Below are positions 1 through 56,780 of a stretch of 64,000 nt of DNA, piece after piece. Source of the stretch: Kocuria rhizophila (GTDB lineage Bacteria; Actinomycetota; Actinomycetes; Actinomycetales; Micrococcaceae); the NCBI RefSeq assembly GCF_003667225.1, contig NZ_RCOM01000005.1, positions 1 through 64,000 on the forward strand. The letters run 5' to 3'. Position 1 is the stretch's first letter. Every line of letters starts with the position of its first letter. The position numbers were made by a program, and so were the translations under genes. The notes under the pieces are model-generated. The model saw only the letters and a list, made by a program, of their open reading frames with translations. It searched no databases and was not told where the DNA came from.

Positions 1-877
1 AGCGGTACCTGGCGGGGGCGGGGACCGCCGCGGCGTCGTGCGCCTCCCCCGCCAGGTACCGCTCGATCACGTGCGCCACGCCGTCCTCGGTGAACGCCGG
101 TGCGGTGCGCTCCACGGCGGCGACGACGCCCGGGTGCCCGTCCGCCATGGCGTAGCCCCGCCCGGCCCAGGTGAGCATCTCGAGGTCGTTGGGCATGTCC
201 CCGAACGCCATCACCTCGTGGCGGGAGATCCCCAGCTCAGCGGCGAAGTGCTCGAGGGTGCGGGCCTTGGTGAGCCCGCGCTGGCCCATCTCCACGAGCG
301 GGGCGGCGGCCACCGAGTGGGTGACCGCGAGCCTGCCCGCCACCACATCGCGGACGGCCTCGAAGTAGGCTTCCGGCTCGGCGCCGTCCAGCTTGGCGAG
401 CAGTTTGACCACCTGGGTGCCGGCGCGCAGGGTCTCGGTCACTGGTGCCTCGGTGACGTCCCGGATCTCCATCCGGTCCGTGCGCGCCCATCCGTGGTCC
501 GTGTGCACGGCGTCCAGGGTCTCCGCGGCGAACAGCGAGTCCGGGAATGCCCGGCGCACGTCCTCGATCACCGGCAGCGCCTCGGACACGTCGAAGCCGT
601 TGGCGTGCAGCACACGCTCCGTGCCGGGATCGAAGACCACGGCGCCGTTGGAGCAGATCACCACGCCCACGTCGTCGAGCTGCTCGTGCAGGGGGTCCAG
701 CCACCGTTTGGGGCGCCCGGTCACGAACACCACCTGGATCCCGGCGTCCCGGGCCGCGGCGATGGCCTCCAGGGTGCGGGGGCGGAAGCGGAAGTCCGGG
801 CCCAGGACGGTCCCGTCCAGATCGCTCGCGATCAGCCGGACGGGCGCCCGCCCCGGATCCTGCACGTGCTCCGCCAC
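1..877 (-). CDS. HAD-superfamily Cof-type phosphatase (partial, runs off window start)
   Basis: The reverse strand is open from a GTG at 877 to base 1 with no stop, so the C-terminal end lies outside the window. The product is a HAD IIB (Cof-type) phosphatase, expected to hydrolyse small sugar- or cofactor-phosphates with Mg2+. The nucleophile motif SDLDGT is at about residues 18-23, and motif IV GDMPNDLEML is near the visible C-terminus, with the cap domain between them. It starts 5 bases after the PEBP stop, so the two are probably co-transcribed. A second GTG at 865 is an alternative start; neither has a strong ribosome site. The last visible residues contain HDAAA, coded by a copy of the dispersed ACGACGCCGC word. 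The substrate is unknown. Confidence 0.8.
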   Translation of the reverse strand, partial: MAEHVQDPGRAPVRLIASDLDGTVLGPDFRFRPRTLEAIAAARDAGIQVVFVTGRPKRWLDPLHEQLDDVGVVICSNGAVVFDPGTERVLHANGFDVSEALPVIEDVRRAFPDSLFAAETLDAVHTDHGWARTDRMEIRDVTEAPVTETLRAGTQVVKLLAKLDGAEPEAYFEAVRDVVAGRLAVTHSVAAAPLVEMGQRGLTKARTLEHFAAELGISRHEVMAFGDMPNDLEMLTWAGRGYAMADGHPGVVAAVERTAPAFTEDGVAHVIERYLAGEAHDAAAVPAPARYR

Positions 878-2541: not shown

Positions 2542-2551
2542 GCGGCGTCGT
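2542..2551 (-). repeat. Single copy of dispersed word ACGACGCCGC (intergenic)
   Basis: GCGGCGTCGT on the + strand, in the roughly 220-bp gap upstream of gapB. It is not part of a visible hairpin. It is one of about 40 copies in the window; see findings. Confidence 0.7.
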
Positions 2552-4164: not shown

Positions 4165-4213
4165 ACGACGCCGCCCGGTGGCCTTCTGCGCGAAGGTCAC
4201 CGGGCGGCGTCGT
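4165..4213. terminator. Bidirectional hairpin terminator built from paired ACGACGCCGC words
   Basis: Arms 4165-4185 and 4193-4213 pair over 21 bp with a single G-U and a 7-base loop (CTGCGCG). The distal 10 bp of each arm is the dispersed word ACGACGCCGC in inverted orientation. It lies between the convergent gapB and aminopeptidase genes, so it probably stops transcription from both sides. There is no strong T-run. Confidence 0.75.
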
Positions 4214-8075: not shown

Positions 8076-8966
8076 ATGAAGGGCATCATCCTCGCGGGCG
8101 GCACGGGCTCCCGTCTGCACCCCGTGACCCTGGGCGTGAGCAAGCAGCTCGTGCCGGTCTACGACAAGCCGATGATCTACTACCCGCTCTCCACGCTACT
8201 GCTCGCGGGCATCCGGGAGATCCTGGTGATCACCACCCCGCACGACGCCGAGCAGTTCCGTCGCCTGCTCGGGGACGGCTCCCGCTTCGGCGCGGTGATC
8301 TCCTACGCCCAGCAGGAGTCCCCGGACGGGCTCGCCCAGGCGTTCCTGCTGGGGGCCGAGCACATCGGGGACGACAGCGTGTGCCTCGTCCTGGGCGACA
8401 ACATCTTCTACGGTCCGGGACTCGGCACCCAGCTGCGCCGCTTCCACGACCTCCAGGGCGCCGCGATCTTCGGGTACCGGGTGGCGGATCCCAGCGCGTA
8501 CGGCGTGGTGGAGTTCGACGCCGCCGGGCAGGCCGTGTCCATCGAGGAGAAGCCCGAGCACCCCCGCAGCCCGTACGCCGTCCCGGGGCTCTACTTCTAC
8601 GACCGGCGCGCCGTCGAGTTCGCCCGCTCGCTCACGCCCTCACCGCGCGGCGAGCTGGAGATCACGGACCTCAACCGGATGTACATGGACCGGGGCGAGC
8701 TCGCGGTGCACGTGCTGCCGCGCGGCACCGCGTGGCTGGACACCGGCACGTTCGACTCCCTCGCGGACGCCACAAACTTCATCCGCACCGTCCAGGCGCG
8801 CCAGGGCACCTCGATCGGCTGCCCCGAGGAGGTGGCGTGGCGCATGGGCCTGATCTCCGACGCCCAGCTGCGCGACTGCGCCACCGAGCTGCACAAGAGC
8901 GGCTACGGCGCGTACCTCGAGTCCCTTCTCACGGAGCACGACGCCGCCCTGCCGCAGCGCAACTGA
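8076..8966 (+). CDS. rfbA: Glucose-1-phosphate thymidylyltransferase
   Basis: A 296-residue enzyme making dTDP-glucose from dTTP and glucose-1-phosphate, the first step of dTDP-sugar (for example rhamnose) synthesis. The N-terminal nucleotidyltransferase loop [14 protein letters not shown], the [16 protein letters not shown] segment, [10 protein letters not shown] and [10 protein letters not shown] are all present, and the length matches RmlA. ATG at 8076 follows GGGGAC. No rfbB, rfbC or rfbD lies beside it, so the pathway partners must be elsewhere. The last codons include a copy of the dispersed word, reading HDAA four residues before the end. Confidence 0.93.
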
Positions 8967-9183: not shown

Positions 9184-9193
9184 GCGGCGTCGT
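9184..9193 (-). repeat. Single copy of dispersed word ACGACGCCGC (just beyond iclR stop)
   Basis: GCGGCGTCGT lies in the convergent gap between rfbA and iclR, six bases past the iclR stop. A weaker variant (GCTGCGTCGT) lies near 9034. No convincing hairpin was seen with this copy. Confidence 0.65.
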
Positions 9194-14072: not shown

Positions 14073-15365
14073 GTGGATCCGTCACTCCCTCCCGTTGCCG
14101 TCCTCGGCGCGGGCCCCATCGGTCTGGCCTGTGCAGCGGAGCTGCGGCACCGCGGTCAGGAGGTCATCGTGTTCGAGCGCGGGGACGACGCCGCCACCAG
14201 CGTCCGCGAGTGGTCGCACGTCCGCATGTTCTCCCCCTGGCGGGAGCTCACCTCACCCACCGCCGTCCGCCTCATCGGACCCGCGTGGCGCGAGCCCCGA
14301 GAGGGCTTCTACCCGACGGGTGCCCAGTGGCTGGAGCAGTACCTCCTGCCTCTGGCGGAGGCGCTCGGGGACGTGATCCGATACGAGCACGAGGTCGTCG
14401 GCGTCTCCCGCCTGGACAGAGACCGCATGGTCGACTCCGGCCGCGACGACGTTCCGTACATCGTGCACACACGCACGCGCGATGGGCGCATCGAGCGGCA
14501 TCTCGCGCGCGCGGTGGTGGACACGACCGGCACCTGGAACCAGCCGAGCCCTCTCGGATCGGAGGGGTACCCCGTGGACGGCGAGCGGCGGTACGCCGAT
14601 CGCATCTACTACGGCATTCCACGTGTAGAAGAGGGCGGCTACGCCGGGGAGCACGTCGCTGTGGTCGGGACGGGCGCCTCCGCGCTGACCACTCTGATCG
14701 CACTGACCCGCCCCGGACACGACGCCGCAGCACATGTCACCTGGGTGGTCCGGCGCCCCAGCGCAGAAACCGCGTTCGGGGGAGGCGACGACGACGAGCT
14801 GCCGGCTCGCGGGGAACTCGGCAAGCGGGTGCGCCGTGCCGTGAACGACGGACGCATCAGCCTTGTGACGGGCTTCCGTACTGCACGCCTCGTGGAGGAC
14901 GGCGGCACCCTCACGCTGGAGTCGTCCGGAGGGCGTGAGATCACCGGCGTCACACGGATCGTGTGCGCCACGGGCTTCCGCCCGGACTTCTCCTTCTTGA
15001 GCGAGGCGCGTCTGAACCTGGATGCCTCACTCCAGGCGCCGGCCCGACTTGCCGAAGACATCGACCCGACCTGGCACTCGTGCGGATCCGTCACCCCGCA
15101 CGGCTACGACGTGCTCGAACAGACGGACAAAAACCTCTTCATCGCGGGCATCAAGTCCTACGGGCGCGCCCCCTCGTTCCTGGCCATGACCGGGGTGGAG
15201 CAGGTGCGTTCGATTGCCGCCTACCTCGCCGGCGACCTCGACGCCGCCCGTCGCGTGGAGCTCGTCCTGCCCGCCACCGGCGTCTGCGGCGGCGCCGGCA
15301 CATTCGACGACGAGCCCGCTCCTACCACCTCGTGCTGCACCACAGGAGACGATGATGAGAACTGA
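14073..15365 (+). CDS. arsO: ArsO-like FAD/NAD(P) flavoprotein monooxygenase
   Basis: A 430-residue flavin-dependent oxidoreductase and first gene of the ars operon. The FAD loop GAGPIGLACA lies at about residues 11-20, and a second Rossmann loop VVGTGASAL is near residue 195. It ends with a Cys-containing tail (TGVCGGAG, TTSCCTT). ArsO-type proteins occur in many actinobacterial ars loci; the reaction is proposed to act on arsenic compounds but is poorly established. GTG at 14073 sits four bases after AAGGAGG; the ATG at 14069 is out of frame. Its end overlaps ACR3 by 11 bases. Two copies of the dispersed word lie inside, reading DDAA and HDAA. Confidence 0.75.
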   Translation: MDPSLPPVAVLGAGPIGLACAAELRHRGQEVIVFERGDDAATSVREWSHVRMFSPWRELTSPTAVRLIGPAWREPREGFYPTGAQWLEQYLLPLAEALGDVIRYEHEVVGVSRLDRDRMVDSGRDDVPYIVHTRTRDGRIERHLARAVVDTTGTWNQPSPLGSEGYPVDGERRYADRIYYGIPRVEEGGYAGEHVAVVGTGASALTTLIALTRPGHDAAAHVTWVVRRPSAETAFGGGDDDELPARGELGKRVRRAVNDGRISLVTGFRTARLVEDGGTLTLESSGGREITGVTRIVCATGFRPDFSFLSEARLNLDASLQAPARLAEDIDPTWHSCGSVTPHGYDVLEQTDKNLFIAGIKSYGRAPSFLAMTGVEQVRSIAAYLAGDLDAARRVELVLPATGVCGGAGTFDDEPAPTTSCCTTGDDDEN

Positions 15366-16991: not shown

Positions 16992-17001
16992 ACGACGCCG
17001 C
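16992..17001 (+). repeat. Single copy of dispersed word ACGACGCCGC (intergenic)
   Basis: It lies in the 197-base gap between arsC and the hydroxypyruvate isomerase gene, 25 bases before the latter's start. It is not part of a hairpin. Confidence 0.65.
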
Positions 17002-17917: not shown

Positions 17918-17927
17918 GCGGCGTCGT
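17918..17927 (-). repeat. Single copy of dispersed word ACGACGCCGC (intergenic)
   Basis: GCGGCGTCGT lies between hyi and glycerate kinase, embedded between two direct copies of GGCCCCGCGG (starting near 17912 and 17939). Confidence 0.6.
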
Positions 17928-19198: not shown

Positions 19199-20929
19199 AT
19201 GAACGCCTCACCCCAGCGCGGTTCCCGCAAGCCCTCGCACGACGACGCCGCGGCCCCGGACAGCGCGCCGCAGCGGCCCGAGGACGCGGTCGCCACGGAC
19301 CACGCCCGGAACGACGAGCAGGCCACGGTGGACGTGCGCGCGAAGGTGGAGCGGGCGGCGTCGTCCCCGGAGCGTGACGAGTCTCCCGAGGAGGTTGCGG
19401 AGCATAACTCGAACCTCGCGGAGACCCCCGAGAACCGCGCCGAACGGGGTGGTGAGCGTGCCGCGCAGATCGCGCTGGCCGCCGAGGTCAACGGTGCGGA
19501 GCACGTGCGCGAACTGATCCGGGAGTACCGAGCCGAGCACCATCTCACGGGGGCGGACGAGTCCGCGGAGGCCCGGGGCACCGGACGGCGGGACGGCGAG
19601 TTCGACCTCGTGGTCCGCGGCCACCGGGTGATGTGCGGGGACCACTTCGTGCCCCGGGAGGTGGGCGTGCGGAACGGGAAGATCGCCGCGATCGAGCCGC
19701 TCGGCGCCGGTCTGCAGGGCGCGCGGGTCGTGGAGCTCGCCGAGGACGAGACGCTGCTGCCCGGCCTCGTGGACACCCACGTGCACGTGAACGAGCCCGG
19801 GCGCACCGAGTGGGAGGGCTTCGCCACCGCCACCCGGGCGGCCGCGGCGGGCGGTGTGACCACCATCGTGGACATGCCCCTGAACTCCGTGCCCGCCACC
19901 GTGAACACGGCCGCACTCGAGTACAAGCGGCTGTTCGCCCAGCAGAACGCGTTCGTGGACATCGGCTTCTGGGGCGGCGCCGTGCCCGGCAACAAGTCCG
20001 ATCTGCGCCCCCTCCACGACGACGGCGTGTTCGGCTTCAAGTGCTTCCTGCTGCACTCCGGTGTGGACGAGTTCCCGCACCTGGAGGCGGACGAGATGGA
20101 GGAGGCGCTCGCCGAGATCAAGACCTTCGACTCGCTGCTGATCGTGCACGCGGAGGACTCCCGCACCATCGACAAGGCCCCGCAGCCCAAAGGCAACGTG
20201 TACGAGAACTTCCTGAAGTCCCGCCCGCGCGGTGCGGAGAACATCGCGATCGCGGAGGTCATCGAGCGCACCCGCTGGACCGGGGCCCGCTCGCACATCC
20301 TGCACCTGTCTTCCTCGGACGCAATCCCCATGATCCGCTCCGCCAAGAACGACGGCCTGGACATCACCGTGGAGACCTGCCCGCACTACCTCACGCTGCT
20401 CTCCGAGGAGATCCCGGACGGCGCCACCGCGTTCAAGTGCTGCCCGCCGGTGCGCGAGGTCTCCAACCGGGAGAAGCTGTGGGAGGGGCTGATCGACGGC
20501 ACCATCGACTACATCGTCTCGGACCACTCCCCCTCCACACTGGACCTCAAGGACCTGGGCAACGGGGACTTCGGGGTGGCGTGGGGCGGCGTCTCGTCGT
20601 TGCAGCTGGGCCTGTCCCTGATCTGGACCGAGGCGCGACGCCGCGGGGTCGGGCTCGAGCGCGTGGTGCGGTGGATGTCCACGCGCCCGGCCGAGCGCGT
20701 GGGCCTGCGCGGCAAGGGCAAGCTGTCCCTGGGCTACGACGCGGACATGGCGGTCTTCGCCGCGGACGAGAGCTACGTGGTAGACGCCCAGCGCCTGAAC
20801 CACAAGAACCCCATCACCCCGGACCAGGGCAAGGTGCTCTCCGGGAAGGTTCGTCGCACGTTCGTGGGCGGGCACGAGGTGGACTACGAGACGCCCACGG
20901 GCCGTCTTCTGAGCCGCGGCCAGGCCTGA
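19199..20929 (+). CDS. allB: Allantoinase with long N-terminal extension
   Basis: A 576-residue cyclic amidohydrolase opening allantoin to allantoate. The metal site HVHVNEPGRTEWEGF, the Lys region FGFKCFLLHS, the His in LIVHAEDS and ILHLSSSDA, and the Asp in VSDHSPSTLDLK are all visible. Typical allantoinases are about 450 residues; here the catalytic domain begins only near residue 135. The first 85 residues are acidic, low-complexity and contain two copies of the dispersed word (reading DDAA and AASS). Residues 85-115 could form a helix. AAAGGA precedes the ATG, so the long start looks real. A perfect terminator follows. It works with hyi and glxK on purine-derived glyoxylate. Confidence 0.9.
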   Translation: MNASPQRGSRKPSHDDAAAPDSAPQRPEDAVATDHARNDEQATVDVRAKVERAASSPERDESPEEVAEHNSNLAETPENRAERGGERAAQIALAAEVNGAEHVRELIREYRAEHHLTGADESAEARGTGRRDGEFDLVVRGHRVMCGDHFVPREVGVRNGKIAAIEPLGAGLQGARVVELAEDETLLPGLVDTHVHVNEPGRTEWEGFATATRAAAAGGVTTIVDMPLNSVPATVNTAALEYKRLFAQQNAFVDIGFWGGAVPGNKSDLRPLHDDGVFGFKCFLLHSGVDEFPHLEADEMEEALAEIKTFDSLLIVHAEDSRTIDKAPQPKGNVYENFLKSRPRGAENIAIAEVIERTRWTGARSHILHLSSSDAIPMIRSAKNDGLDITVETCPHYLTLLSEEIPDGATAFKCCPPVREVSNREKLWEGLIDGTIDYIVSDHSPSTLDLKDLGNGDFGVAWGGVSSLQLGLSLIWTEARRRGVGLERVVRWMSTRPAERVGLRGKGKLSLGYDADMAVFAADESYVVDAQRLNHKNPITPDQGKVLSGKVRRTFVGGHEVDYETPTGRLLSRGQA

Positions 20930-20930
20930 C

Positions 20931-20970
20931 GACGACGCCGTGCCCCGCCTTCGCGGGGCACGGCGTCGTC
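20931..20970 (+). terminator. Perfect 18-bp hairpin terminator after allantoinase
   Basis: Arms 20931-20948 and 20953-20970 are exact complements around a CTTC tetraloop. The arms begin GACGACGCCGTG, a one-base variant of the dispersed word in inverted pair. It starts two bases after the stop codon. Confidence 0.85.
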
Positions 20971-26217: not shown

Positions 26218-26274
26218 GTGAAGCACTTTTGACCACTGCAGCTGCCCCGGTCACCCAATTCGCGACGTTCCCAC

Positions 26275-26319
26275 GACGGCGCCGTGCCCCGCCCCGCGAA
26301 GGCCGGGCACGGCGTCGTC
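26275..26319. terminator. Imperfect hairpin built from dispersed-word variants
   Basis: Arms 26275-26293 and 26301-26319 match at 17 of 19 positions. The right arm ends GGCGTCGTC, a variant of the dispersed word. It lies between the abiE promoter and the end of the amine oxidase gene and probably acts with the perfect hairpin just downstream. Confidence 0.6.
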
Positions 26320-26336
26320 GTCGCCCGGAGACGGAC

Positions 26337-26368
26337 GAGGCGCCCACCCCGTGGAGGGTGGGCGCCTC
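26337..26368 (-). terminator. Perfect 13-bp hairpin after amine oxidase
   Basis: GAGGCGCCCACCC and GGGTGGGCGCCTC pair exactly around CGTGGA. It lies about 38 bases beyond the amine oxidase stop on the minus strand, so it is that gene's terminator. The 19-bp hairpin beyond it gives a double terminator. Confidence 0.75.
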
Positions 26369-26405
26369 GCTCACGCGCTACCGGAAAAAGCCGGCGCGGG
26401 TGGTC

Positions 26406-28467: not shown

Positions 28468-28477
28468 ACGACGCCGC
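28468..28477 (+). repeat. Single copy of dispersed word ACGACGCCGC (intergenic)
   Basis: It lies in the divergent gap upstream of tetR, followed by CCGGGC. No inverted partner is close by. Confidence 0.65.
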
Positions 28478-29189: not shown

Positions 29190-30146
29190 ATGCGTTCCCC
29201 TCGCCCGCTTCCCGCGCGCCCCGACGACCACGACGACGGCCCTCCGGCCGGCAGCCGCTACCAGCGCCTTGACAGCGCCGCCGTCCGCGGTTCCGCGGCC
29301 ACCCTGCAGCGCCGGATCTACGCGCGCTTCCCCCGCCGCAGCCTGTGGGAGGTGGGCGGTGAGCTGATCGCCCTGGTGGACGAGGTGGTCGAGGGCGGCG
29401 GCATCAGCCGACGCCGGATCCGCTCGGCCCGGCTGCTCTCGCGGCTCGGCGTGCTGGTGGTGCTGCTGGTCTTCGGCACGGCCATCGCCCTGGCCGCCGC
29501 GAGCCTCTGGTCCAACCCCGACGCCCTGGGCCCCGTGGACTGGCTGCCCCTGCTGGAGACCGTGGTCAACGACCTCGTCTTCGCGGGCATCGCCATCTTC
29601 TTCCTGCTGGCCGTGCCCCAGCGCATGGAGCGCGCCCGGGTGCTGCGCGTGCTGCACCGGCTGCGCTCGCTGGCCCACGTGATCGACATGCACCAGCTCG
29701 TCAAGGTCCCCGAGCGCCTGCCGACCGCCCGTCCGGAGGCCGGGGGCACGACGTCGCCCGCGCACCCCCGCGGCCCAGGTGCCGGTTCCGCGCGGGGCGG
29801 CGGAGCGGCGTCGTCGGAGGCGGCGGTGGGTGACGCCCACGGCCGCGGCGCGGGTCCGAGCGGTGACGACGTGCCGCCGGTGGCTGCGGACGGGACCGAC
29901 GCGGCATCGTCGCCAACGACGGATGAGCGCGGCGGAGAACTGCGGATGACCCGCTCCGAGATGACGCAGTACCTGGACTACTGCACCGAGATGCTCTCCC
30001 TGGTGGGCAAGACTGCGGCGCTGTTCGCGGAGGACACCACGGACGGGGACGTGCTGGATGCGGTGGAGGGCATCGAGACCCTCACCTCGGACATGGCGCG
30101 GAAGGTGTGGCAGAAGATCGCGATCATCCAGGAGCAGGCGGGCTGA
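29190..30146 (+). CDS. Two-helix membrane protein with long low-complexity linker, unknown
   Basis: A 318-residue protein with a basic N-terminal cytoplasmic region, two hydrophobic segments (near residues 83-107 and 125-147) and a juxtamembrane helix (RMERARVLRVLHRLRSLAHVIDMHQLVKVPERL). A Gly/Ala/Asp-rich linker at about 180-250 precedes a compact helical C-terminal domain (TRSEMTQYLDYCTEMLSLVGKTAALFAEDTTDGDVLDAVEGIE). The linker holds a dispersed-word copy reading AASS plus a one-base variant. I do not know the family beyond actinobacterial hypothetical membrane proteins. It starts ten bases after tetR on the same strand. Confidence 0.75.
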   Translation: MRSPRPLPARPDDHDDGPPAGSRYQRLDSAAVRGSAATLQRRIYARFPRRSLWEVGGELIALVDEVVEGGGISRRRIRSARLLSRLGVLVVLLVFGTAIALAAASLWSNPDALGPVDWLPLLETVVNDLVFAGIAIFFLLAVPQRMERARVLRVLHRLRSLAHVIDMHQLVKVPERLPTARPEAGGTTSPAHPRGPGAGSARGGGAASSEAAVGDAHGRGAGPSGDDVPPVAADGTDAASSPTTDERGGELRMTRSEMTQYLDYCTEMLSLVGKTAALFAEDTTDGDVLDAVEGIETLTSDMARKVWQKIAIIQEQAG

Positions 30147-30253: not shown

Positions 30254-31393
30254 TCAGGACGCCGGGGTGATGAGCCCCTGCTCCACCATCCAGTCGTAGG
30301 CCACGTCCCCCGGCTCCTCGCCGCCCTGGTCCACGCGGGCGTTGAGCTCGCGCATGGTTTCGTCCGTGAGCAGCGGGGAGAGCTGCGCGAACACGTCCTC
30401 CAGCTCCGGGTACTGCTCCAGGGTCTCGGTGCTGAACACCGGCGCGGCGTTGTAGGCGGGGAAGAACCCGCGGTCGTCCTCCAGCAGCGTGAGGTCCAGG
30501 GTGTCGATGCGTCCGTCCGTGGTGAAGGCCTCGCCGAAGTTGCAGTCCCCGGCGTCCGTGGCGGTGTAGACGGCGCCGGTGTCGTAGACCCCGATGTTTT
30601 CGTCCGGCACCCCGTCCGCCGCGCCGCGGTCCAGCCCGTACGCCTCCAGCATGGGGTTCAGCCCGTCCGGGCGGGAGTTGAACTCCGCCTCCACGCAGAA
30701 CGTGCGCTCGCTCACGGGGAGCTCGGCCACGTCCGAGAACGTCTTGATGTCACCCAGCTCCGCCACGGCCTCGCTGCGCACCGCGAACCGGTAGGTGTTG
30801 TTCAGCGGGGCCGGTTCCGCCCACGTGAGCCCGTTCTCCAGGTCCGCGTCCCGCACCGCCTCGTACTGCTTCTGCTGGTCCGCGATCCCCTTCTCGTGGT
30901 TGAGGTAGGTGATCCACGCGGTGCCCGTGTACTCGTAGGTCATGTCCGCCTCCCCGGAGAGCATGACCTCGCGGGTGGGCTGGCTGCCGGGGATGTTGGT
31001 GAGGTCCGTGACCTCGAACCCGGCGGCCTGCGCGGCGAGCACGGCCATCTTGCCCAGGATGAGCTGCTCCGTGAAGTTCTTGCCCGCCACCGTGAGGTGC
31101 GCGTCCTCCGGCAGCCCCTCGATCGGCTGGATGGTGCCCGGTCCGGCCGCGGGCACGTAGGACGAGGCCGGCTGCAGTCCGCAGCCCGCCAGCAGCAGGA
31201 CCCCGGCCACGGCGGCCACACCCGAGGCGGCACGTCGCCCCCGGCGGCGCGAGCGGTGCCGCCCACCGGGGGACGCCGGGGCCGCGGTGTTCCGGTGCGC
31301 GGCGTCGTCGCCGTCCGGGGCGGGAGCGGCCGGGCCCGACGACGCCGCGCCGCCCGGCCACCCGCAGCCGTGGACTTCCGATGCGTGCGTCAT
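30254..31393 (-). CDS. Glycine betaine/choline-type ABC substrate-binding lipoprotein
   Basis: A 379-residue OpuAC-type binding protein and last gene of an osmoprotectant transporter operon. The lipobox LLLAGC places the lipid-anchored Cys at residue 71. The mature part has TVAGKNFTEQLILGKM, GSQPTREVMLSGEADMTYEYTGTAW and a C-terminal PLLTDETMRELNARVD, as in OpuCC/ProX of the choline/betaine class. The region before the signal helix is about 55 residues long, far longer than normal. It contains two oppositely oriented dispersed words, reading AASS and DDAA. ATG 31393 follows GAAGGGA and lies two bases after the permease stop. Confidence 0.88.
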   Translation of the reverse strand: MTHASEVHGCGWPGGAASSGPAAPAPDGDDAAHRNTAAPASPGGRHRSRRRGRRAASGVAAVAGVLLLAGCGLQPASSYVPAAGPGTIQPIEGLPEDAHLTVAGKNFTEQLILGKMAVLAAQAAGFEVTDLTNIPGSQPTREVMLSGEADMTYEYTGTAWITYLNHEKGIADQQKQYEAVRDADLENGLTWAEPAPLNNTYRFAVRSEAVAELGDIKTFSDVAELPVSERTFCVEAEFNSRPDGLNPMLEAYGLDRGAADGVPDENIGVYDTGAVYTATDAGDCNFGEAFTTDGRIDTLDLTLLEDDRGFFPAYNAAPVFSTETLEQYPELEDVFAQLSPLLTDETMRELNARVDQGGEEPGDVAYDWMVEQGLITPAS

Positions 31394-34245: not shown

Positions 34246-34598
34246 GGGTGTACCGGCTCCTCGGATCGGCGCGGAACCGGCGTTCGACGCAGCGGGCCGT
34301 GGCCCCGCCGCGGACTGCCGGCTCGGTGCCGGCAGGAGCCGTCTCTCGCTCTTCGATCGTAGGTGCATTCGCATCTTTCGGGACCACGCCGCGCCGCACC
34401 CCGCGGGTTCGGCCCGCACCCGGCGCGACTCCAGCGTGGTTCTCCGAGCCACCGTGCCCCCGCGCCTCCGCACCGGGGCCGAGCCGAGCGGCGTCGTGCG
34501 CGTCCCGCTGTCAGCGGAACCCGCCGCCACGATCTTGCAGGCTTCGGGAGCGCGGTGCCACAGTAGAAGTCATCACCCGATAGAAAGGACCCTTAGCA
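34246..34598. other. 353-base gene-free divergent region
   Basis: It separates the osmoprotectant operon from the PfpI-like gene. Contents seen: a minus-strand TACGAT box near 34360 without a good -35, one dispersed word GCGGCGTCGT at 34488-34497, and the ribosome site GAAAGGA before the PfpI start. I find no supportable ORF or RNA gene in it. Confidence 0.5.
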
Positions 34599-35153
34599 AT
34601 GTCTGACCTGTCCGGAAAGAAGATCCTCCTCCTCGTCAACAACCAGGGCGTGGAGCAGGACGAGCTGAAGGTGCCCGCCGACAAGCTGCGCGCCGACGGC
34701 GCGGAGGTCACGGTGGCCGCCCCCGAGTCTGGCGAGGTGAAGTCGCTCGTGGGCGACTGGGACCTCGGCGAGACCTTCCCCGTGGACGCGACCATCTCCT
34801 CCGTGGACGACGCCGCGTACGACCTCCTGCTGCTGCCCGGCGGCACCCTGAGCGCGGACTCCCTGCGCCTGGACGAGGACGCGCAGAAGATCGCCAAGGC
34901 CTTCGCCTCCTCCGGGCGCCCGGTGGCCTCCATCTGCCACGGCCCGTGGCTGCTCGTGGAGACCGGCCTGGTGGACGGCAAGACCCTGACCTCCTACCAG
35001 TCGGTGAAGACGGACATCGTCAACGCCGGCGGCAGCTGGGTGGACGAGCAGGTGAAGGTGTGCCCCGCCAACGGCTGGACGCTCATCACCTCCCGCAACC
35101 CCGGTGACCTGGACGCGTTCGTGGGCGCCATCGAGGACCAGCTCACCGCCTGA
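34599..35153 (+). CDS. PfpI/DJ-1 superfamily protein (type 1 amidotransferase-like)
   Basis: A 184-residue DJ-1/PfpI protein. The nucleophile elbow is VASICHGPWLLVE with Cys near residue 114 and an adjacent His. The GDWDLGETFPVDATISSVDDAAYDLLLLPGG block supplies the conserved Glu/Asp. Members act as stress chaperones, glyoxalase III-like or deglycase enzymes; the exact role is disputed in the family. GAAAGGACC precedes the ATG. A very strong terminator follows. It is divergent from an osmoprotectant operon, in line with a stress role. Confidence 0.87.
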   Translation: MSDLSGKKILLLVNNQGVEQDELKVPADKLRADGAEVTVAAPESGEVKSLVGDWDLGETFPVDATISSVDDAAYDLLLLPGGTLSADSLRLDEDAQKIAKAFASSGRPVASICHGPWLLVETGLVDGKTLTSYQSVKTDIVNAGGSWVDEQVKVCPANGWTLITSRNPGDLDAFVGAIEDQLTA

Positions 35154-36559: not shown

Positions 36560-36569
36560 ACGACGCCGC
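36560..36569 (+). repeat. Single copy of dispersed word ACGACGCCGC just beyond hipA
   Basis: It lies six bases past the hipA stop on the minus strand. No inverted partner lies near; it may be a solo word. Confidence 0.65.
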
Positions 36570-37974: not shown

Positions 37975-38108
37975 GGCAAGAAGTTGCCGATTACGGTTCA
38001 GTGGACCTCATTCTGCCGCCAAACCCCGTAAACCGGCAAGATGTTGCCTTTCCAGGCTCCGCGGCGTCGTCGAACCCGCCGGAGGTGGCCTATCGGCAGG
38101 ATGCTGCC
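37975..38108. promoter_or_regulatory. Three phased HipB-type operators
   Basis: GGCAAGAAGTTGCC (37975-37988), GGCAAGATGTTGCC (38035-38048) and GGCAGGATGCTGCC (38095-38108) share the form GGCA-RGAWG-YTGCC and start exactly 60 bases apart. The first is next to hipB; the third lies inside the last codons of the neighbouring MFS gene. Multiple operators that allow cooperative DNA bending are known for E. coli hipBA. Confidence 0.8.
38061..38070 (-). repeat. Single copy of dispersed word ACGACGCCGC between hip operators
   Basis: GCGGCGTCGT lies between the second and third hip operators, 20 bases before the MFS stop. Confidence 0.65.
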
Positions 38109-39465: not shown

Positions 39466-39511
39466 ACGACGCCGCCCGCACCCTTCCGTGGGAGAGTGCG
39501 GGCGGCGTCGT
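39466..39511 (-). terminator. 16-bp perfect hairpin from paired ACGACGCCGC words
   Basis: Arms 39466-39481 and 39496-39511 are exact complements; each begins with the dispersed word followed by CCGCAC. The loop is 14 bases. It sits 36 bases beyond the SRPBCC gene stop on the minus strand. Confidence 0.75.
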
Positions 39512-40076: not shown

Positions 40077-41084
40077 TCAAGCGTTTTTGCGGTGGGCGAA
40101 GAACTCCGGGCCGTTCGGGCGGCCCGCGGGCTCGGGCCGCTGCGACTGTCCGGCCCCCGGCCACGGCGCCTCCTCCGGCTGACCGGCCAGCTGCGCGAGG
40201 CCCAGCAGGTGGTGGGCGAAGCCGAGCTCGGCGCGACCCTCGAACCGCGCGGAGGTGATCACCCGGATCCGGTCCGTGGCCTCGATGCGCGCTCCCACCC
40301 GGTGCAGTGCGGCCACGAGCGCCTCGTCCTCGCTGCACTCCAGCGCGGGAAACCCACCCGCACGCTCGTAGCTGCGCGCTCGCACCCCCATGTTCGCGGC
40401 GTGGATGTGCGGGTGCCCCTCCGCGAGCGTGTGCTCCCGCTGCCACAGGCGGTACACGGCCACCGGGCACTCCGCCGGGTCCGGCTCCACGGTCCCGAGC
40501 ACCGCGTCCACCCCGTGAGCCGCGCGCTCCAGCTGATAGGCAACCCAGTTCTCGGGCACCGCGGTGTCCGCGTCCGTGGATGCGATCCACTCCGGCCGGC
40601 AGTTCGCCAGCGCCCACGACGCCGCGGCCGCTCGGGCCCCGCCCGCACTGCGCCACGATCCCGTCACCACCTCGAGCCGCGTCGTGCCCTCGGGCAGTCC
40701 CGACGCCGCCCACGCGGCGCTCGCGCGCTCCACCGTGTCGTCGGTGCACGCGTCCGCGGCGAGCACCACGGTCACGTGGAGCGGCGCGGACACGCCGGGT
40801 CCGTCGGGTCCGCCGGGTCCGTCGGGTCCGCCGGGTCCGTCGGGTCCGTCGGGAGACGATAGCTCGGAGTCGGCCGGCGGCACGGCGGCGTCGTCCCCCG
40901 GCGGCGCGGGCTCCGACCCCGTGGGCACGGCAGGGACTGCCCCGGGGGCCGTCTGCGACGGCGCCTCCATTACACGAGCCGTGGTGCAGGCCGCCGCAAT
41001 CGCCGCGGCCACGGACGCGATGCACCGCCCCACCCGCTCCTCCTCGTTGCAGGCCGGAACCACCACCGCGACTCGCCGGATCAT
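40077..41084 (-). CDS. Family 2 glycosyltransferase with low-complexity insert
   Basis: A 335-residue GT-A transferase. N-terminal RRVAVVVPACNEEERVGRCI is the sugar-nucleotide strand, DADTAVPENW supplies the DxD metal motif, and GFPALECSEDEALVAALHRVG the acceptor side. Between strand 1 and strand 2 (about residues 36-100) there is a 65-residue Pro/Gly/Asp insert with a collagen-like GPDGPG run, coded by a 9-bp tandem repeat. Two dispersed words lie within (near 40616 and 40885). It is last in an operon with a PIG-L/methyltransferase and an acyl-CoA dehydrogenase homologue, overlapping the former by four bases. Confidence 0.83.
   Translation of the reverse strand: MIRRVAVVVPACNEEERVGRCIASVAAAIAAACTTARVMEAPSQTAPGAVPAVPTGSEPAPPGDDAAVPPADSELSSPDGPDGPGGPDGPGGPDGPGVSAPLHVTVVLAADACTDDTVERASAAWAASGLPEGTTRLEVVTGSWRSAGGARAAAASWALANCRPEWIASTDADTAVPENWVAYQLERAAHGVDAVLGTVEPDPAECPVAVYRLWQREHTLAEGHPHIHAANMGVRARSYERAGGFPALECSEDEALVAALHRVGARIEATDRIRVITSARFEGRAELGFAHHLLGLAQLAGQPEEAPWPGAGQSQRPEPAGRPNGPEFFAHRKNA
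40798..40851. repeat. 9-bp minisatellite inside glycosyltransferase gene
   Basis: Six tandem units alternate mostly GGTCCGTCG and GGTCCGCCG. In the gene's reading frame they code the GPDGPG run. Array length could vary by slipped-strand mispairing without breaking the frame. Confidence 0.8.
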
Positions 41085-42418: not shown

Positions 42419-43602
42419 GGGGTGTCCTCCTCCCCCAGCTCGAGCAGCGTCCGCCCCAGCGCGGCGGTGTCCCGCTCGGCGTGGTCCTGGCGGATGTAGA
42501 CCTGCAGCGACTCCACGCGGCGGATGTGTGCGGGGTCCCCGGTGAGCGGGCCGGGGCCCGTGGCGCGGGAGACCACGCGGATGACCGTCTCGGCGGCGTC
42601 GGCCACGGTGCGGCGCACGCGCAGGGCCCAGGCGGCGCCGCGGTCCCCGGCGGCGTCGCCCGCGTCCACGGCCGCCGCGGCCTGCTCCAGCACGGCGCGG
42701 GCCGCCCCGAGCGTGAGGTCCAGCTGCCCGAGGGCGGTGTGGGCGGCGTCGTCCACGGGACGGCGGGGGTGGCGCAGCTGGCGCCACAGCAGGTCCGCAA
42801 CCGACTGCGCGCCGCCCAGCCAGATGGCGGCCACGCCCATGCCGCCCCACCCGAAACCGGGGCGGGTGAGGTACCACTCGTCCGCGCCGAGCGGCTCGGC
42901 CGGGACGTCCTCAAAGGCCACGGGCACTGTGACGACCTCCGCGAGCCCGTGCGAGGTCCACTGCTCCACGGGCGCGGGCCGGAACCCAGGGTGGTCGGTG
43001 GCGACGACGAACGCGCGGCGGTGCCCGGTGGGCTCGCCGTGCTCGTCCGTCACGTGCGCCGTGACGACGGCGCGGGTCACCGAGTCCGCGAGCGAGCACC
43101 ACGGTTTGGTGCCGGTGAGGGTCCAGGTGGCGCCCGGTTCGTCGCCCGCACCGGGTGACGGCGTGCGCGCCTCTCCCCCGCTCCCGTCCGGCTCCGACGA
43201 CGACGCCGCGCCGCCCCGGTTCTCGGCGAACCCCAGGCCCGGCGCGCGGTCCGGACCGGGCGTCGTCGTCGTCGGCGTGGCGAGCAGGGGCTCCCCCGGA
43301 CCCTCCGCGGCCCACACGGCCCAGGTGTCGTGGTCGGTGACGAGGTCGGCGCGGCCGGCCTGCCGCAGGATCGCGAGGGCGTCCAGGTGGGGCTCGATGA
43401 TGCGCGCGTACGCCAGGTCGGTGCGCCCGAGCTCGCTCAGGGTGCGCCACAGCTCGGCCGTGCGCCCCTCTCCCGGAGCGGGCAGCCGGCGCCCGAGCTC
43501 GCGGGCCCGGTCCAGTGCGTGGGCCACGAAGTCCCGCACCGCGTGCGGATCCGGGACGGCGGCGGGCGGAAGGGGAAGCTCTGCAGGCGCGGACACGACC
43601 AT
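42412..43602 (-). CDS. Acyl-CoA-dehydrogenase-like flavoprotein with linker insert
   Basis: A 396-residue acyl-CoA/acyl-ACP dehydrogenase homologue and first gene of the three-gene operon. The middle beta-domain motif WTLTGTKPWCSLAD is seen, and the C-terminal helices follow from about residue 230. The usual catalytic Glu region is not obvious, so it may be an oxygenase- or dehydrogenase-like paralog. A Gly/Ser-rich insert at about residues 120-155 contains a dispersed word (AASSS). A second word reads VDDAAHT near residue 285. It is divergent from a GntR gene. The natural substrate is unknown. Confidence 0.78.
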   Translation of the reverse strand: MVVSAPAELPLPPAAVPDPHAVRDFVAHALDRARELGRRLPAPGEGRTAELWRTLSELGRTDLAYARIIEPHLDALAILRQAGRADLVTDHDTWAVWAAEGPGEPLLATPTTTTPGPDRAPGLGFAENRGGAASSSEPDGSGGEARTPSPGAGDEPGATWTLTGTKPWCSLADSVTRAVVTAHVTDEHGEPTGHRRAFVVATDHPGFRPAPVEQWTSHGLAEVVTVPVAFEDVPAEPLGADEWYLTRPGFGWGGMGVAAIWLGGAQSVADLLWRQLRHPRRPVDDAAHTALGQLDLTLGAARAVLEQAAAAVDAGDAAGDRGAAWALRVRRTVADAAETVIRVVSRATGPGPLTGDPAHIRRVESLQVYIRQDHAERDTAALGRTLLELGEEDTPW

Positions 43603-45880: not shown

Positions 45881-45890
45881 ACGACGCCGC
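45881..45890 (+). repeat. Single copy of dispersed word ACGACGCCGC (intergenic)
   Basis: It lies 36 bases after the ABC permease stop in the gap before the next membrane protein gene; no inverted partner is close. Confidence 0.65.
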
Positions 45891-47056: not shown

Positions 47057-48445
47057 ATGCCCGGACTTCCGCACCCGCACGATTCCCCTGCCCACGAGGA
47101 CCACGAGCAGTCCCAGCACCGCGAGACCGCCGAACCGACCGCGCACTGGGCGTCCTGGGACGAGGCCCGCCGCATCGCGTACGGCGTGCCCCAGCCGCTG
47201 CCCAACATCCTCCTGCCGCTCGCCCAGTGCCTCGAGGAGACCCTTGCCGAGTCCGTGACCGCAGAGATGCCGGTCCCCCACTACGCCACGGCCGCCACGG
47301 ACGGCTGGGCGGTGGCCGGCGAGGGCCCGTGGCGGGTCCGCACCCCGCAGCCCGCCGAGACCGACGAGCGGCTACTGCTGACCCTGCCCCCGGAAAAGCG
47401 CATGCTGGCCGTGGTGGAGCTGCACCCCGGGGAAGCCACCCACGTGAACACCGGGGACGCCGTTCCCTACGGAACCAGTGCCGTGCTGGAGGCCCACCGC
47501 GGTCACGTGGTGCCGGCGGACCCCGCCGCTGACGTCCCCGAGGACACCGAGCACGGACGCAGGGCCGTGGAGGGCGACACCCTGGAGGACGCCACCCCCG
47601 CCGCTCCCCTGGTGAAGAACCAGGACGTCCGCGCCGTGGGCGAGGAGATCCAGCAGGGTGACCTGCTGCTGCGTGCGGGCCGCAAGCTCAACCCCGTGCA
47701 CCTGGGGCTCGCGGCGAGCGCCGGCCACGACATGCTCCCCGTACGACGCCGCCCGCGCGTCACCGTGCTGCTCGGCTACGCCAACGTGGTGGAGGACGGC
47801 ATCCCCGGGCCCGGTGAGGTGCGCGACTCGCTGAGCCTGCAGCTGCCCGCGGTGCTCCGGGAACTGGGCGCGAACGTGGACCAGGTGCGCCGCGTGGCGG
47901 ACGGCTGCGAGGGCATGGTCTCCGCCCTCACGGAGTCCCCCATGGGTGCGGGTTCGCTGCTGGACGCCCGCGCCGAGATGGTCGTGACCACGGGCGGCAC
48001 GGGCCACGGGGAGGACGACCACGTCCGTCAGGCCCTCGAGGAGCTGGGCGCCCACCTCATCCTGGACGGGGTGGCGCAGGAACCGGCTCACGGCGTGATC
48101 CTGGCGAAGCTCCCGGAGGACGGTCCCGTGGTGCTCGCACTGCCGGGCTCGCCCCTGTGCGCCATGACCGGTCTGCTCACGGTGGGCCACGCGCTGATCG
48201 CCGGGGCCACCGGTGAGGGACTGCCCACCACCCGCCGGCTCACGGCCGGACGTGCACTGGACCCCCTGGGCCGCACCCGCGTGATCCCGGCCTACATCCA
48301 GGACGGCCGGGTGATCCCCGAGCCCACGGTGGGCCCGGCCATGCTCTCGGGCCTCGCCCACGCGGACGTGCTGCTGGTGGTCCCCGAGGACGGGATGCAG
48401 CCGGGCCAGGACATGGAGGCCATCCCGCTGCCCTGGCGGTTGTGA
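47057..48445 (+). CDS. moeA: MoeA-like molybdopterin molybdenumtransferase
   Basis: A 462-residue MoeA-family protein that inserts molybdate into adenylylated molybdopterin. Blocks are PVPHYATAATDGWAV, VNTGDAVPYGTSAV, VRAVGEEIQQGDLLLRAGRKL, the MPT-binding TTGGTGHGEDDHVRQAL and VLALPGSPLCAM. The canonical TGDEL loop reads LLGYANVVEDGIPGPGEVRDS, so the domain is diverged. A 60-residue N-terminal extension and a low-complexity segment near residues 160-180 are additions. AGGAGA precedes the ATG. Activity may be altered given the diverged loop. Confidence 0.8.
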   Translation: MPGLPHPHDSPAHEDHEQSQHRETAEPTAHWASWDEARRIAYGVPQPLPNILLPLAQCLEETLAESVTAEMPVPHYATAATDGWAVAGEGPWRVRTPQPAETDERLLLTLPPEKRMLAVVELHPGEATHVNTGDAVPYGTSAVLEAHRGHVVPADPAADVPEDTEHGRRAVEGDTLEDATPAAPLVKNQDVRAVGEEIQQGDLLLRAGRKLNPVHLGLAASAGHDMLPVRRRPRVTVLLGYANVVEDGIPGPGEVRDSLSLQLPAVLRELGANVDQVRRVADGCEGMVSALTESPMGAGSLLDARAEMVVTTGGTGHGEDDHVRQALEELGAHLILDGVAQEPAHGVILAKLPEDGPVVLALPGSPLCAMTGLLTVGHALIAGATGEGLPTTRRLTAGRALDPLGRTRVIPAYIQDGRVIPEPTVGPAMLSGLAHADVLLVVPEDGMQPGQDMEAIPLPWRL

Positions 48446-49420: not shown

Positions 49421-49430
49421 ACGACGCCGC
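49421..49430 (+). repeat. Single copy of dispersed word ACGACGCCGC (intergenic)
   Basis: It lies 29 bases upstream of the DUF456 start. An oppositely oriented copy lies at 49602, too distant for a simple hairpin. Confidence 0.65.
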
Positions 49431-49601: not shown

Positions 49602-49611
49602 GCGGCGTCGT
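49602..49611 (-). repeat. Single copy of dispersed word ACGACGCCGC (beyond NAD-GDH stop)
   Basis: GCGGCGTCGT lies 24 bases past the NAD-GDH stop on the minus strand, within a very G+C-rich stretch. Confidence 0.65.
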
Positions 49612-49635: not shown

Positions 49636-52600
49636 TCAGTCCACGAGCGCCCCGCGCAGGGTGCGCAGCGCCACGGACAGCGCGGCGAGCTCGGCACCGG
49701 CGTCGTCCGACTCGGACATGGACTCGATCTCGTCCAGCACCTCCCGCAGCCGCTCGAGCCGGTCCGCGTTCTCCTGCTCCCACGCCTGCACCTTCTGCTG
49801 GGCGTCCTCACCCGGGGACTCGAGCGCCTGCGCGGCGAGCGCCACCAGCGTGGAGTACAGGTCCTCGCGCATCGCGATCCGCGCCATGTTCTCCCAACGG
49901 GTGGTCTGCGGCAGGGCGCTGATGCGGTTGAGCAGGTTCTCCAGCCCGTAGCGGTCGAACAGGGAGAAGTAGACGCGCGCGATCATCTGCACGCTCACGC
50001 CGTTCCCATCCGTTCCCCCGGTCAGGCCGCGCCCGGAGGACGACGCCGCCGCGCCGCCTCCGCCGCCCGCCGTCCCGTCCTGCGCCGGGCCGGTGATGCC
50101 CTGCTGCTCGGCGAGCCGCGCCACGTCCAGCAGCGCGAACGCGTCCAGCAGCTCCGCCCACTCGACCGCGAGGTCCCGCGGCACGCCGTGGCGCTCGGCG
50201 AGCTCCGCCTCGGTCTGGGTGCGCTCCTCGGACTCCGGGCCCATCAGGTGCTCGGAGCCGAAGCGCAGGGCCACGATGGGACGGTAGGTGTCCACGAGCT
50301 CCTGGATCCCGGTGTCCGCGTCCTGGCGGTGCAGGAACCAGCGGACCACGCGGTCCAGCAGGCGCCGCATGCGCAGCGACATCCGGTTCCACACCTCCAG
50401 GGGCACGTCCGCACCCAGCTGGGCGTGGCGGTCGGCGTAGCTCTCCAGCTCGAAGATCTCCATGGCCGCGGTGAACGCGCGCGCCACGTCCGCGAGGTCC
50501 GAACCGGAGTCGTCCACCACGCGGTACGCGAACGCGATCCCGCCGAAGTTGATGATCTGGTTGGCCACCACGGTGGAGATGATCTCCTTGCGCAGCGGGT
50601 GGGTGTCCAGCTCCGCGTCGAAGCGCTCCCGGATCTGCGCCGGGAAGTACTGGGACAGCGTGCGGTGGAACCACGGGTCGTCCGCGAGGTCGCTGTCCAC
50701 GAGCGCCGCCGTGAGCTGGATCTTGGCGTACGCCGTGAGCACGGACAGTTCCGGGCCGGTCAGGGGCTGGCCCTGAGCCGCACGCTCGCGCAGCTCGGCG
50801 TCGGAGGGCAGGAACTCCAGCTCCCGGTTGAGGTCCGCGGTGTCCTCGAGCCAGTGCATGAGCCGGATGAACATCTCCGTGAAGGAGACCCCGCGGGCGC
50901 GCTCGGTGGTGAGCAGCACGTTCTGCGCCACGTTGGTGCGCAGCACCAGCTCCGCCACCTCGTCCGTCATGGACTCGATGAACTCCGCGCGCTCCTCCGC
51001 GGAGAGCAGCCCGGCCTGGACCATGCCGTCCACGAGGATCTTGATGTTCACCTCGCGGTCGGAGGACTCCACACCCCCGGAGTTGTCGATCGCGTCCGTG
51101 TTGACCAGGATCCCGTTCAGCGCGGCCTCGATGCGTCCGAGCTGGGTGGCGCCCAGGTTGCCACCCTCGCCGATCACCTTGACGCGCAGGTCCTCGCCGT
51201 TGACGCGGATGGCGTCGTTGGCCTTGTCCCCGACCTCCTGGTGGGTCTCGGAGGAGGCCTTCACGTAGGTGCCGATGCCGCCGTTGTAGAGCAGGTCTGC
51301 CGGCGCGAGCAGGATGCGGCGCACGAGCTCCTGCGGGCTGAGCGACTCCACGCCGTCCTCGATGCCCAGCGCCTCGCGCACCTGCGGGGTGAGCGGGATG
51401 GACTTCTCGCGGCGCGAGTACACGCCGCCGCCCTCGGAGATCACGCTGCGGTCGAAGTCCTGCCACGAGGTGCGCCCCGCGTTGAACAGCCGCTCACGCT
51501 CCTTGTAGGAGGCCGCGGCGTCCGGGGTGGGGTCCAGGAAGATGTCCCGGTGGTCGAACGCGGCGATCAGGTTGATGTGCTCGGAGAGCAGCATCCCGTT
51601 GCCGAACACGTCCCCGGACATGTCCCCCACGCCCACCACGGTGAACGCCTCGGACTGGGTGTCCACGCCGAGCTCGAAGAAGTGGCGCTTCACGGACTCC
51701 CACGCACCGCGGGCGGTGATGCCCATGGCCTTGTGGTCGTAGCCCACGGAGCCGCCGGACGCGAACGCGTCCCCGAGCCAGAAGCCGCGGTCCAGGGAGA
51801 TCGCGTTCGCGGTGTCGGAGAACGCCGCCGTGCCCTTGTCAGCCGCGACCACCAGGTAGGAGTCGTCGCCGTCGCGGCGCACCACGTTCTCGGGGTGCAC
51901 CACGGTGTCCCCGGCCTCGCCGGAGGTCTCGGCGGAACCGCTCGCACCGCCCTCGGCACCCGGGGTGGCATCCCCGCGGGACGACGACGCCGCACCCTGC
52001 CCGGTCTCGTCCGTCCCGTTCTGCGCGGAGACCTCCTGGCCGGCACCGGTCTCCGCCTCGCGCACGATGTTGTCGGTGACGTCCAGCAGGGACGCGATGA
52101 ACAGCTTGTAGGCCTCGCGCCCCTCGGTCAGCCAGCCCTCGCGGTCCGTCGCGGGGTCCGGCAGCTGCTTGGGGAAGAACCCGCCCTTCGCGCCCGTGGG
52201 CACGATCACGGCGTTCTTGACCATCTGGGCCTTGACCAGGCCCAGCACCTCGGTGCGGAAGTCCTCGCGGCGGTCGGACCAGCGCAGACCGCCGCGGGCC
52301 ACCTGGCCGAAGCGCAGGTGCGTGCCCTCCACGCGCGGGGACCACACCCAGATCTCGAAGGCCGGGCGCGGCTGCGGTGCCGCGGGGATGGCCGCGGGGT
52401 CCAGCTTGAACGCCATGGTGGGGCGGTTCTGGAACACGTTGGTGCGCAGGGTGGCCGTGACCACGTCCGCGAGCGCCCGGAACAGGCGGTCCGCGTCCAG
52501 GCTGGGAACGCTCTCCAGCACCTCGGCCAGCCGCTGGAGGGCGGCCTCGCGCGCCTGGCCGCGGGCGGCGTCGTCGTCCGTGAAGCGGGACGGGTCGAAG

Positions 52601-56602: not shown

Positions 56603-56612
56603 ACGACGCCGC
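56603..56612 (+). repeat. Single copy of dispersed word ACGACGCCGC (intergenic)
   Basis: It lies in the roughly 240-base gap between the histidine phosphatase start and the DUF2382 stop, 130 bases from the paired words at 56742/56770. Confidence 0.65.
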
Positions 56613-56740: not shown

Positions 56741-56780
56741 CACGACGCCGCGCCCCCGATCGGCGGGGCGCGGCGTCGTG
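56741..56780 (-). terminator. 16-bp hairpin from paired ACGACGCCGC words
   Basis: CACGACGCCGCGCCCC (56741-56756) and its exact complement (56765-56780) form the arms, with loop CGATCGGC. Each arm contains the dispersed word. It lies 28 bases beyond the DUF2382 stop on the minus strand. Confidence 0.8.

Follow-up and report, generated by a model that had tools for sequence, protein, structure and literature searches.

The locus considered here, behind the GAPDH gene in a window of 64,000 nucleotides of Kocuria rhizophila (the whole stretch of DNA that was analysed), holds a hairpin whose outer arms are two inverted copies of a 10-letter word, ACGACGCCGC, and an earlier note on this DNA had proposed that the word is used as such pairs in transcription terminators. 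The question is whether termination is what the word is for. Judged from counts, pairing, conservation and genome comparison, we consider it rather likely that the word is a DNA uptake sequence, with recognition as its most likely role and termination as a secondary one in about a tenth of the hairpins.

The window contains 41 copies of ACGACGCCGC (23 and 18 by strand) and 49 of the 9-mer ACGACGCCG; from Table 1 the positions of the words and of the hairpins built from them can be seen. Nine hairpins of the window are strong (score 11 or more), three of them with an exact pair and two with near copies. The positions in the earlier note proved right: the three pairs described as exact have ACGACGCCGC on both arms, and in the two described as one- or two-base variants ACGACGCCGT arms were found, with one arm two bases off. 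All five follow a stop codon, at 2 to about 87 nt, as had been claimed, but the statement that such pairs often lie between convergent genes is true only in part, because two sites are clearly convergent and the one at 26275 is so by gene call, with an uncertain left neighbour, whereas two lie between tandem genes. With short flanks, the RNA of the five hairpins is predicted to fold at -43.9 to -60.9 kcal/mol (z from -5.3 to -8.5), and for each of them 0 of 200 shuffles were as stable. When the genome mean is considered, 3 exact pairs compare with 0.8 predicted and 41 words with about 24 predicted; the window is thus richer than the average in both, and flatters the link to terminators.

Table 1. 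Word-pair hairpins and copies of ACGACGCCGC in the window.
Feature	Position	Strand	Remarks
Hairpin, exact inverted word pair	4165..4213		39 nt after GAPDH stop (4126); convergent genes; -60.9 kcal/mol, z -8.5
Hairpin, exact inverted word pair	39466..39511		36 nt after stop (39547) of 39547-40011 (-)
Hairpin, exact inverted word pair	56741..56780		28 nt after stop (56808) of 56808-57257 (-)
Hairpin, both arms ACGACGCCGT, one base off	20931..20970		2 nt after allantoinase stop (20929)
Hairpin, right arm ACGACGCCGT, left arm two bases off	26275..26319		~87 nt after primary-amine oxidase stop (26406)
Single word, in gene	30..39	-	
Single word, intergenic	2542..2551	-	intact in G006, G022, G005, G018
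Single word, in gene	8938..8947	+	
Single word, intergenic	9184..9193	-	
Single word, in gene	14185..14194	+	
Single word, in gene	14719..14728	+	
Single word, intergenic	16992..17001	+	
Single word, intergenic	17918..17927	-	
Single word, in gene	19242..19251	+	
Single word, in gene	19355..19364	-	
Single word, intergenic	28468..28477	+	
Single word, in gene	29805..29814	-	
Outward-pair word, intergenic	31299..31308	-	
Outward-pair word, intergenic	31339..31348	+	
Single word, intergenic	34488..34497	-	
Single word, in gene	34807..34816	+	
Single word, intergenic	36560..36569	+	
Single word, intergenic	38061..38070	-	
Single word, in gene	40616..40625	+	
Single word, intergenic	40885..40894	-	
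Single word, in gene	42743..42752	-	intact in G006, G022, G005
Single word, in gene	43200..43209	+	
Single word, intergenic	45881..45890	+	
Single word, in gene	47743..47752	+	
Single word, intergenic	49421..49430	+	
Single word, intergenic	49602..49611	-	
Single word, in gene	50040..50049	+	
Single word, in gene	51984..51993	+	
Single word, in gene	52565..52574	-	intact in G006, G022, G005
Single word, in gene	55904..55913	+	
Single word, intergenic	56603..56612	+	
Single word, in gene	58072..58081	+	
Single word, in gene	58797..58806	-	
Single word, in gene	61764..61773	-	
Single word, intergenic	63788..63797	+	by gene call that may miss genes here

In the whole genome (G000; 2,701,536 bases) the word is found 995 times, 503 and 492 by strand, i.e., once per 2.7 kb, against 36 copies (21 and 15 by strand) of the reversed-word control. 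A relative assembled as a single contig (G006; 2,697,540 bases; GAPDH 99% identical to that of the window) has 1,124 words (557 and 567 by strand), G005 has 1,024, and the other nine word-rich relatives have 499-888 each. The own sample of 382 kb, i.e., the window and 20 further stretches of G000, contains 153 words where a third-order Markov model gives 5.1. Its spacers have 53 words in 47.6 kb (0.9 Markov-expected, 60-fold), and its genes 95 in 327.7 kb, while 40 synonymous-codon shuffles give 26.1 (standard deviation 2.9, maximum 34), a 3.6-fold excess; the remaining five lie at sample ends, borders or excluded short gaps. Density is thereby 1.11 per kb between genes and 0.29 per kb in coding DNA, and the same preference is seen in G006 (spacers 62 against 1.0 expected, genes 114 against 31.1) and G012 (11 against 0.3, and 21 against 4.5). 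In the G018 sample (5 against 0.1, and 17 against 2.5) the preference is absent (0.23 and 0.22 per kb). Genes were called by our own codon-usage caller, by which some are missed. In both genomes examined, the words are denser where the local GC is higher.

Among 27 Kocuria genomes (G000-G026), 12 are word-rich, with 499-1,124 copies and 7-42 inward pairs, and 15 are word-poor, with 44-237 copies and 0-2 inward pairs. A GAPDH tree of 25 of them places 11 of 11 word-rich genomes on one branch, which has a support of 95/92 and is recovered in 96% of 200 bootstrap trees; this is a tree of one protein, from which the word-rich G002, 79% complete and with a fragmented GAPDH, and the word-poor G024, with only a distant GAPDH, were left out. 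Outside Kocuria, 0-1 inward pairs were counted in 32 other relatives, and 0-2 in a class sample of 393 other genomes, 29 of which have one or two. The single rich branch, with no build-up of pairs outside the genus, makes it probable that the word was gained once, inside Kocuria. When samples of 33-80 kb from the word-poor G001, G009, G013, G024 and G026 were searched for a different dialect, no word of comparable excess was found; CGACGACGCC is mildly over-represented in G001 (16, with 1.7 expected).

Some side observations belong to this survey of genomes. G004 (L132-L133, C1:1-40000) was the sixth genome sampled for a dialect, and its sample is dominated by a repeat of about 21 copies, assembled from 12-mers that overlap (CTCATCCCCGCAGG, AGGCGCGGGGAGCAC); this is probably a CRISPR array. 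The GAPDH of the window shares 85% identity with that of a Kocuria MAG and 81% with that of K. rosea. Among the records L046, L061, L066, L069 and L078, contigs labelled Pseudomonas, Halopseudomonas, Endozoicomonas and other Gammaproteobacteria also encode GAPDH of the long type (about 470 aa); the record named 'Kocuria polaris' (L046) reaches just 65% identity and is probably from a different genus.

Conservation was determined by aligning the window to syntenic stretches, with other 10-mers having eight G or C as the control. Intergenic words are intact at 6 of 13 sites in G006, 4 of 13 in G022 and 4 of 8 in G005 (control 19%, 18% and 6%, the last being 5.7% before rounding; these are small numbers), and genic words at 7 of 14, 5 of 13 and 6 of 10 sites, respectively (control 40%, 28% and 23%), so that in the three aligned relatives that are closest the word is intact more often than 10-mers of its kind. 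Both words of the GAPDH hairpin are intact in these three genomes, and a similar word-pair hairpin is present in a Kocuria MAG (L016). The few alignable intergenic sites of G012 and G018 are intact in 1 of 2 and 1 of 1 cases, and conservation was not seen in more distant alignments (genes of G018 0/4, word-poor G003 0/6 and G009 0/4). Orthologous sites carry one-step variants (e.g., TCGACGCCGC, ATGACGCCGC and ACGACGCCGT), and since several differing sites are one base from the word, it seems that single-base changes create and destroy copies. As regards foreign DNA, a G006 element that carries a serine recombinase and is about 13.5 kb long has 0 words where 5.6 are expected (P 0.004), but this is a single element and its composition confounds the count; because word density falls with lower GC, the lack of words in low-GC DNA, this element included, may be partly compositional, and the case is weak.

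In G000, pairs with 3-30 nt between the words are inward in 34 cases, outward in 6 and direct in 7 (3 on one strand, 4 on the other), and the reversed pattern forms 0 inward pairs; the expectation that there are more pairs than the single-copy density predicts is thus borne out genome-wide. For the 12 word-rich genomes together the counts are 274, 86 and 47. Without interaction between the words, inward and outward pairs would each equal half of the direct ones, so inward pairs are about 12-fold and outward pairs about 4-fold (86 against 23.5) in excess. The excess of outward pairs is predicted neither by uptake nor by 3'-end termination alone. Several outward pairs (in G002, G011 and G018) have ATGAAT or ATTCAT in the short stretch between their words, and a dyad- or operator-like look.

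Pairs in excess in both inverted orientations, together with the conservation in close relatives, could also point to a chromosome-wide protein not concerned with uptake, the word then being the site of a nucleoid organiser, a Chi-type hot-spot, or a segregation or methylation site. Word density is likewise similar in three stretches of G006 (0.49, 0.36 and 0.42 per kb). Even spacing of the words is not convincing, the variance-to-mean ratio being 0.84-1.02 on scales of 2.5-10 kb and 0.59 on that of 20 kb. Sites of the Chi and KOPS kind show a strand bias along the replichore, whereas in the three G006 stretches the strands balance (52/46, 16/20 and 17/25), and a Chi-like or segregation site was rejected for this lack of skew; ParB- and MatS-like sites are confined to one part of the chromosome. 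Chromosome-wide sites of this kind are not known to pair into stems after genes in such number, and we regard this explanation as unlikely.

It seems quite unlikely that the word is primarily a terminator module, in which ACGACG...CGTCGT stems are favoured and single copies are half-sites, relics or chance, although several results would suit it: inward pairs are far above outward and direct ones; of the 45 strong intergenic hairpins (score 11 or more) of the own sample, 44 are in spacers that have one stop codon or more; and 4 of the 13 strong stems of G000 and G006 with ACGACG outermost lack the full word. However, the share of hairpins with the word, proposed in the earlier note as a check, is small, the exact pair being present in 4 of the 45 (3 of those 4 in the window), while G006, also with 45, has the pair in 4 and a single word in 1. 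Intergenic words touch a strong hairpin in 8 of 53 cases in the own sample and 9 of 62 in G006, so that 45 of the own 53 are outside, and the 95 genic words are above their codon null. Divergent spacers of the own sample are as word-dense as convergent ones (13 words in 13.5 kb and 8 in 11.4 kb); in G006, convergent spacers exceed divergent ones in density, with 22 words in 8.9 kb and 9 in 16.3 kb, respectively.

A second count considered stems of score 13 or more anywhere in the samples. The word is outermost in 9 of 75 such stems in G000 and G006 and in 3 of 35 in G012, G018, G005 and G022 (with 2 more in outward orientation), against 0 of 61 in the word-poor Kocuria samples and 0 of 89 in 38 named loci from other genera (most of them Micrococcaceae); the Fisher P for 9/75 equals 0.004 versus word-poor Kocuria and 4e-5 versus both controls pooled. 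The strong hairpins per 100 kb are 9.6 in G000 and G006, 8.4 in the other rich genomes, 8.8 in word-poor Kocuria and 11.5 in the other genera. Since the word-poor Kocuria are about as hairpin-rich with no word in their stems, terminators do not need the word, and the counts across the samples suggest that it moved into a minority of a pre-existing terminator-like kind of hairpin. The five window hairpins are strong, GC-rich and close behind stop codons, as is usual for intrinsic terminators, and no T-run follows any of them on the + strand; the mean T count in the 8 nt following the 75 hairpins is 1.91. Many actinobacterial terminators are without a T-rich tail. What stands of the earlier claim is therefore the excess of pairs after stop codons, and not termination as the purpose of the word: terminators would be only a side use, with about a tenth of the strong hairpins carrying the pair.

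Two observations on the hairpins themselves are added here. The primary-amine oxidase gene is followed by a tandem pair of strong hairpins (window 26273-26369), with the word in the first only. A second, A+T-richer hairpin family, seen at 48549-48600, has outer arms AAGTGCAG...CTGCACTT and was found once in the own 382 kb and twice in 400 kb of G006, but neither in the word-poor Kocuria (693 kb) nor in 39 named loci, most of them from other Micrococcaceae (796 kb).

The word is sharp, 10-11 bases long, with a tolerant first base. This is because, in the spacers of G000 and G006 (112 kb), 115 perfect words compare with 168 over all 30 one-base variants (about 27 expected), 48 of these being ACGACGACGC, with 43 first-base and 24 fourth-base changes, so that most one-base variants are near background; and because the flanks are weak (G before, A three before). 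An iterated word that nothing recognises, neutral or selfish and maintained through bias in repair or mutation, would agree with the one-step variants at orthologous sites; the HIP1 of cyanobacteria, a palindrome, is a comparable, highly iterated short word without known transposition. Nevertheless, we find this origin very improbable: mutation bias is unlikely to yield a sharp non-palindromic 10-mer at 60-fold with most of its one-base variants low, and inverted pairs after stop codons would not be expected. The Kocuria word, likewise iterated, differs from HIP1 in being non-palindromic and pairing into hairpins.

That the word merely follows from codon usage and base composition at 71% GC (GAC GCC, GGC GTC) is hardly credible, and as the sole cause these effects are ruled out by the synonymous shuffle and the word-poor sisters. 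In the commonest coding frame (sense, frame 1) there are 44 copies against 21.5 expected, which means that codon usage explains about half of that frame, but the whole coding excess of the own sample is several-fold as given above, and copies are present in a frame with zero shuffle expectation (sense, frame 2: 5 in the own sample and 12 in G006, against 0.0) and in another (antisense, frame 0) at 24 against 1.4 and, in G006, 23 against 1.2. The sisters of similar GC, i.e., word-poor G009, G003, G001 and G026, have 0 intergenic words in 20.7, 12.1, 7.1 and 9.3 kb (49 kb together) and 10, 3, 7 and 5 coding words, near or modestly above the shuffled 7.6, 2.3, 2.6 and 2.6 (the 7 of G001 exceeds its shuffle maximum of 6).

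For the preferred reading, an uptake sequence, the genes of a competence machine are relevant. The own genome has Pfam domains of ComEA (HHH_3, SLBB) and ComEC (Competence, Lactamase_B) at L242, and its ComEC protein passes Pfam's cut-off; a ComEC match is present in 58 of 59 genomes, the own included, while the NCBIfam curated cut-off is passed by 1 of 59. A TadA-type match (TIGR03819) is present in 39 of 39 genomes, 36 of them above cut-off. The own tad locus L255 has T2SSE, two T2SSF, TadE and Tad domains (TadA, TadB/C, TadE and Tad pilus-assembly protein, by Pfam), together with a candidate Flp pilin (74 aa) and one TadE/F candidate that have no Pfam match; the other (first) tad locus is at L250/L233. 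Since com and tad genes are present in word-rich and word-poor Kocuria alike, they do not track the word and were dropped as a discriminating trait; the machinery is compatible with uptake specificity and is no proof of it. No clade-specific receptor gene was found, and a clade-specific pilin gene was rejected as well, the gene order being the same by eye for the first tad locus in word-poor G009 and G003 and for the second in G009. No reports of uptake or transformation for Kocuria were found in the open-licence literature searched. K. rhizophila is in routine use as a laboratory organism.

In G006 (C1:993,332-1,008,316; L275, L256), tadA of the second locus is split by the serine-recombinase element of about 13.5 kb, with residues 1-95 matching on one side and 38-437 on the other. 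This suggests a pilus or competence gene as the possible integration target of the element, and recalls the prophage in comK of Listeria. Within the fetched stretches, the tadA match starts at residue 38 in G005 (L286) and at residue 95 in G015 (L287), which may be the same interruption, or divergence.

In Micrococcus luteus, comEA and comEC are needed for transformation. Homologues of both are described for this species (PMC6370729), and its transformation needs two separate tad loci (PMC4322843); Kocuria is alike in having com homologues and two tad loci. An uptake sequence for M. luteus is unmentioned in the literature consulted, the term being absent from PMC8467076.

The uptake signal sequence of Pasteurellaceae (USS, AAGTGCGGT), as described in PMC1852404 and PMC1626085, likewise has 9-10 bases, about a thousand copies on equal strands and a preference for DNA outside genes, and it shows oriented inverted pairs, rare direct pairs and subclade-specific types. 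Over the 12 rich genomes, Kocuria pairs rank inward > outward > direct, the order also found in H. influenzae, for which Table 5 of Kingsford et al. (PMC1852404) lists 50 against 25 pairs and direct counts of 1 and 0; the counts given for N. meningitidis Z2491 are 226 against 5, with none direct (PMC1852404). In density the Kocuria word is below Neisseria and H. influenzae, and it comes closer to P. multocida, which has 927 copies in 2.26 Mb, than to H. influenzae. Unlike the USS, the word is GC-rich in a high-GC Gram-positive host and its uptake role is putative, a Tad/Flp pilus is likely rather than a type IV pilus, and about 9-12% of the strong hairpins contain it, where 17-29% of terminators is stated for Pasteurellaceae (PMC1852404). 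The DUS of Neisseriaceae (GCCGTCTGAA) and its dialects, as described in PMC3630211 and PMC2397512, share the 10-base core, clade specificity, permissive sites, conservation and pairing in terminators. The differences are that 54-57% of the best Neisseria terminators carry the DUS (PMC1852404), that the receptor ComP is known in Neisseriaceae and none is known in Kocuria, and that the dialect search in five word-poor Kocuria was negative. The link with the uptake sequences of Haemophilus and Neisseria, which the earlier note had raised, is the best reading, with the preferred pair orientation as in their terminators; on sequence grounds, each uptake-sequence feature tested fits the own genome, apart from rarity in foreign DNA, for which the single element is a weak case either way.

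As a mechanism, ACGACGCCGC would be a genome-wide, clade-specific watermark of one Kocuria branch, and the competence machine would have a component at the cell surface with a preference for word-bearing DNA; by analogy with M. luteus, this may be a Tad/Flp pilus that delivers DNA to ComEA and ComEC. Repeated transformation with the DNA of kin would spread and preserve copies where sequence constraint is weak, and neighbouring copies after genes, as inverted pairs with ACGACG outermost, would give strong hairpins ending in CGTCGT that may be kept as terminators. We infer that the word is recognised during uptake, that there is a recognising protein, and that the hairpins terminate.

Within the literature consulted, uptake sequences are reported only from two Gram-negative families, Neisseriaceae and Pasteurellaceae, and searches of the open-licence literature, with most hits judged on title and the start of the abstract, gave none for Kocuria, Actinobacteria, Micrococcus or Gram-positives. 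We see an about even chance that the uptake system arose once in Kocuria, independently of these two families and via a Tad/Flp pilus, and was co-opted again for terminator hairpins, which would make it a third, convergent origin of self-recognition in transformation. If true, it would be a third independent case and new for Actinobacteria, meaning that uptake specificity evolves repeatedly with different pili; it would offer a single gain inside one genus, with the word-poor sisters as controls, and the co-option for terminators would be a recurrent outcome.
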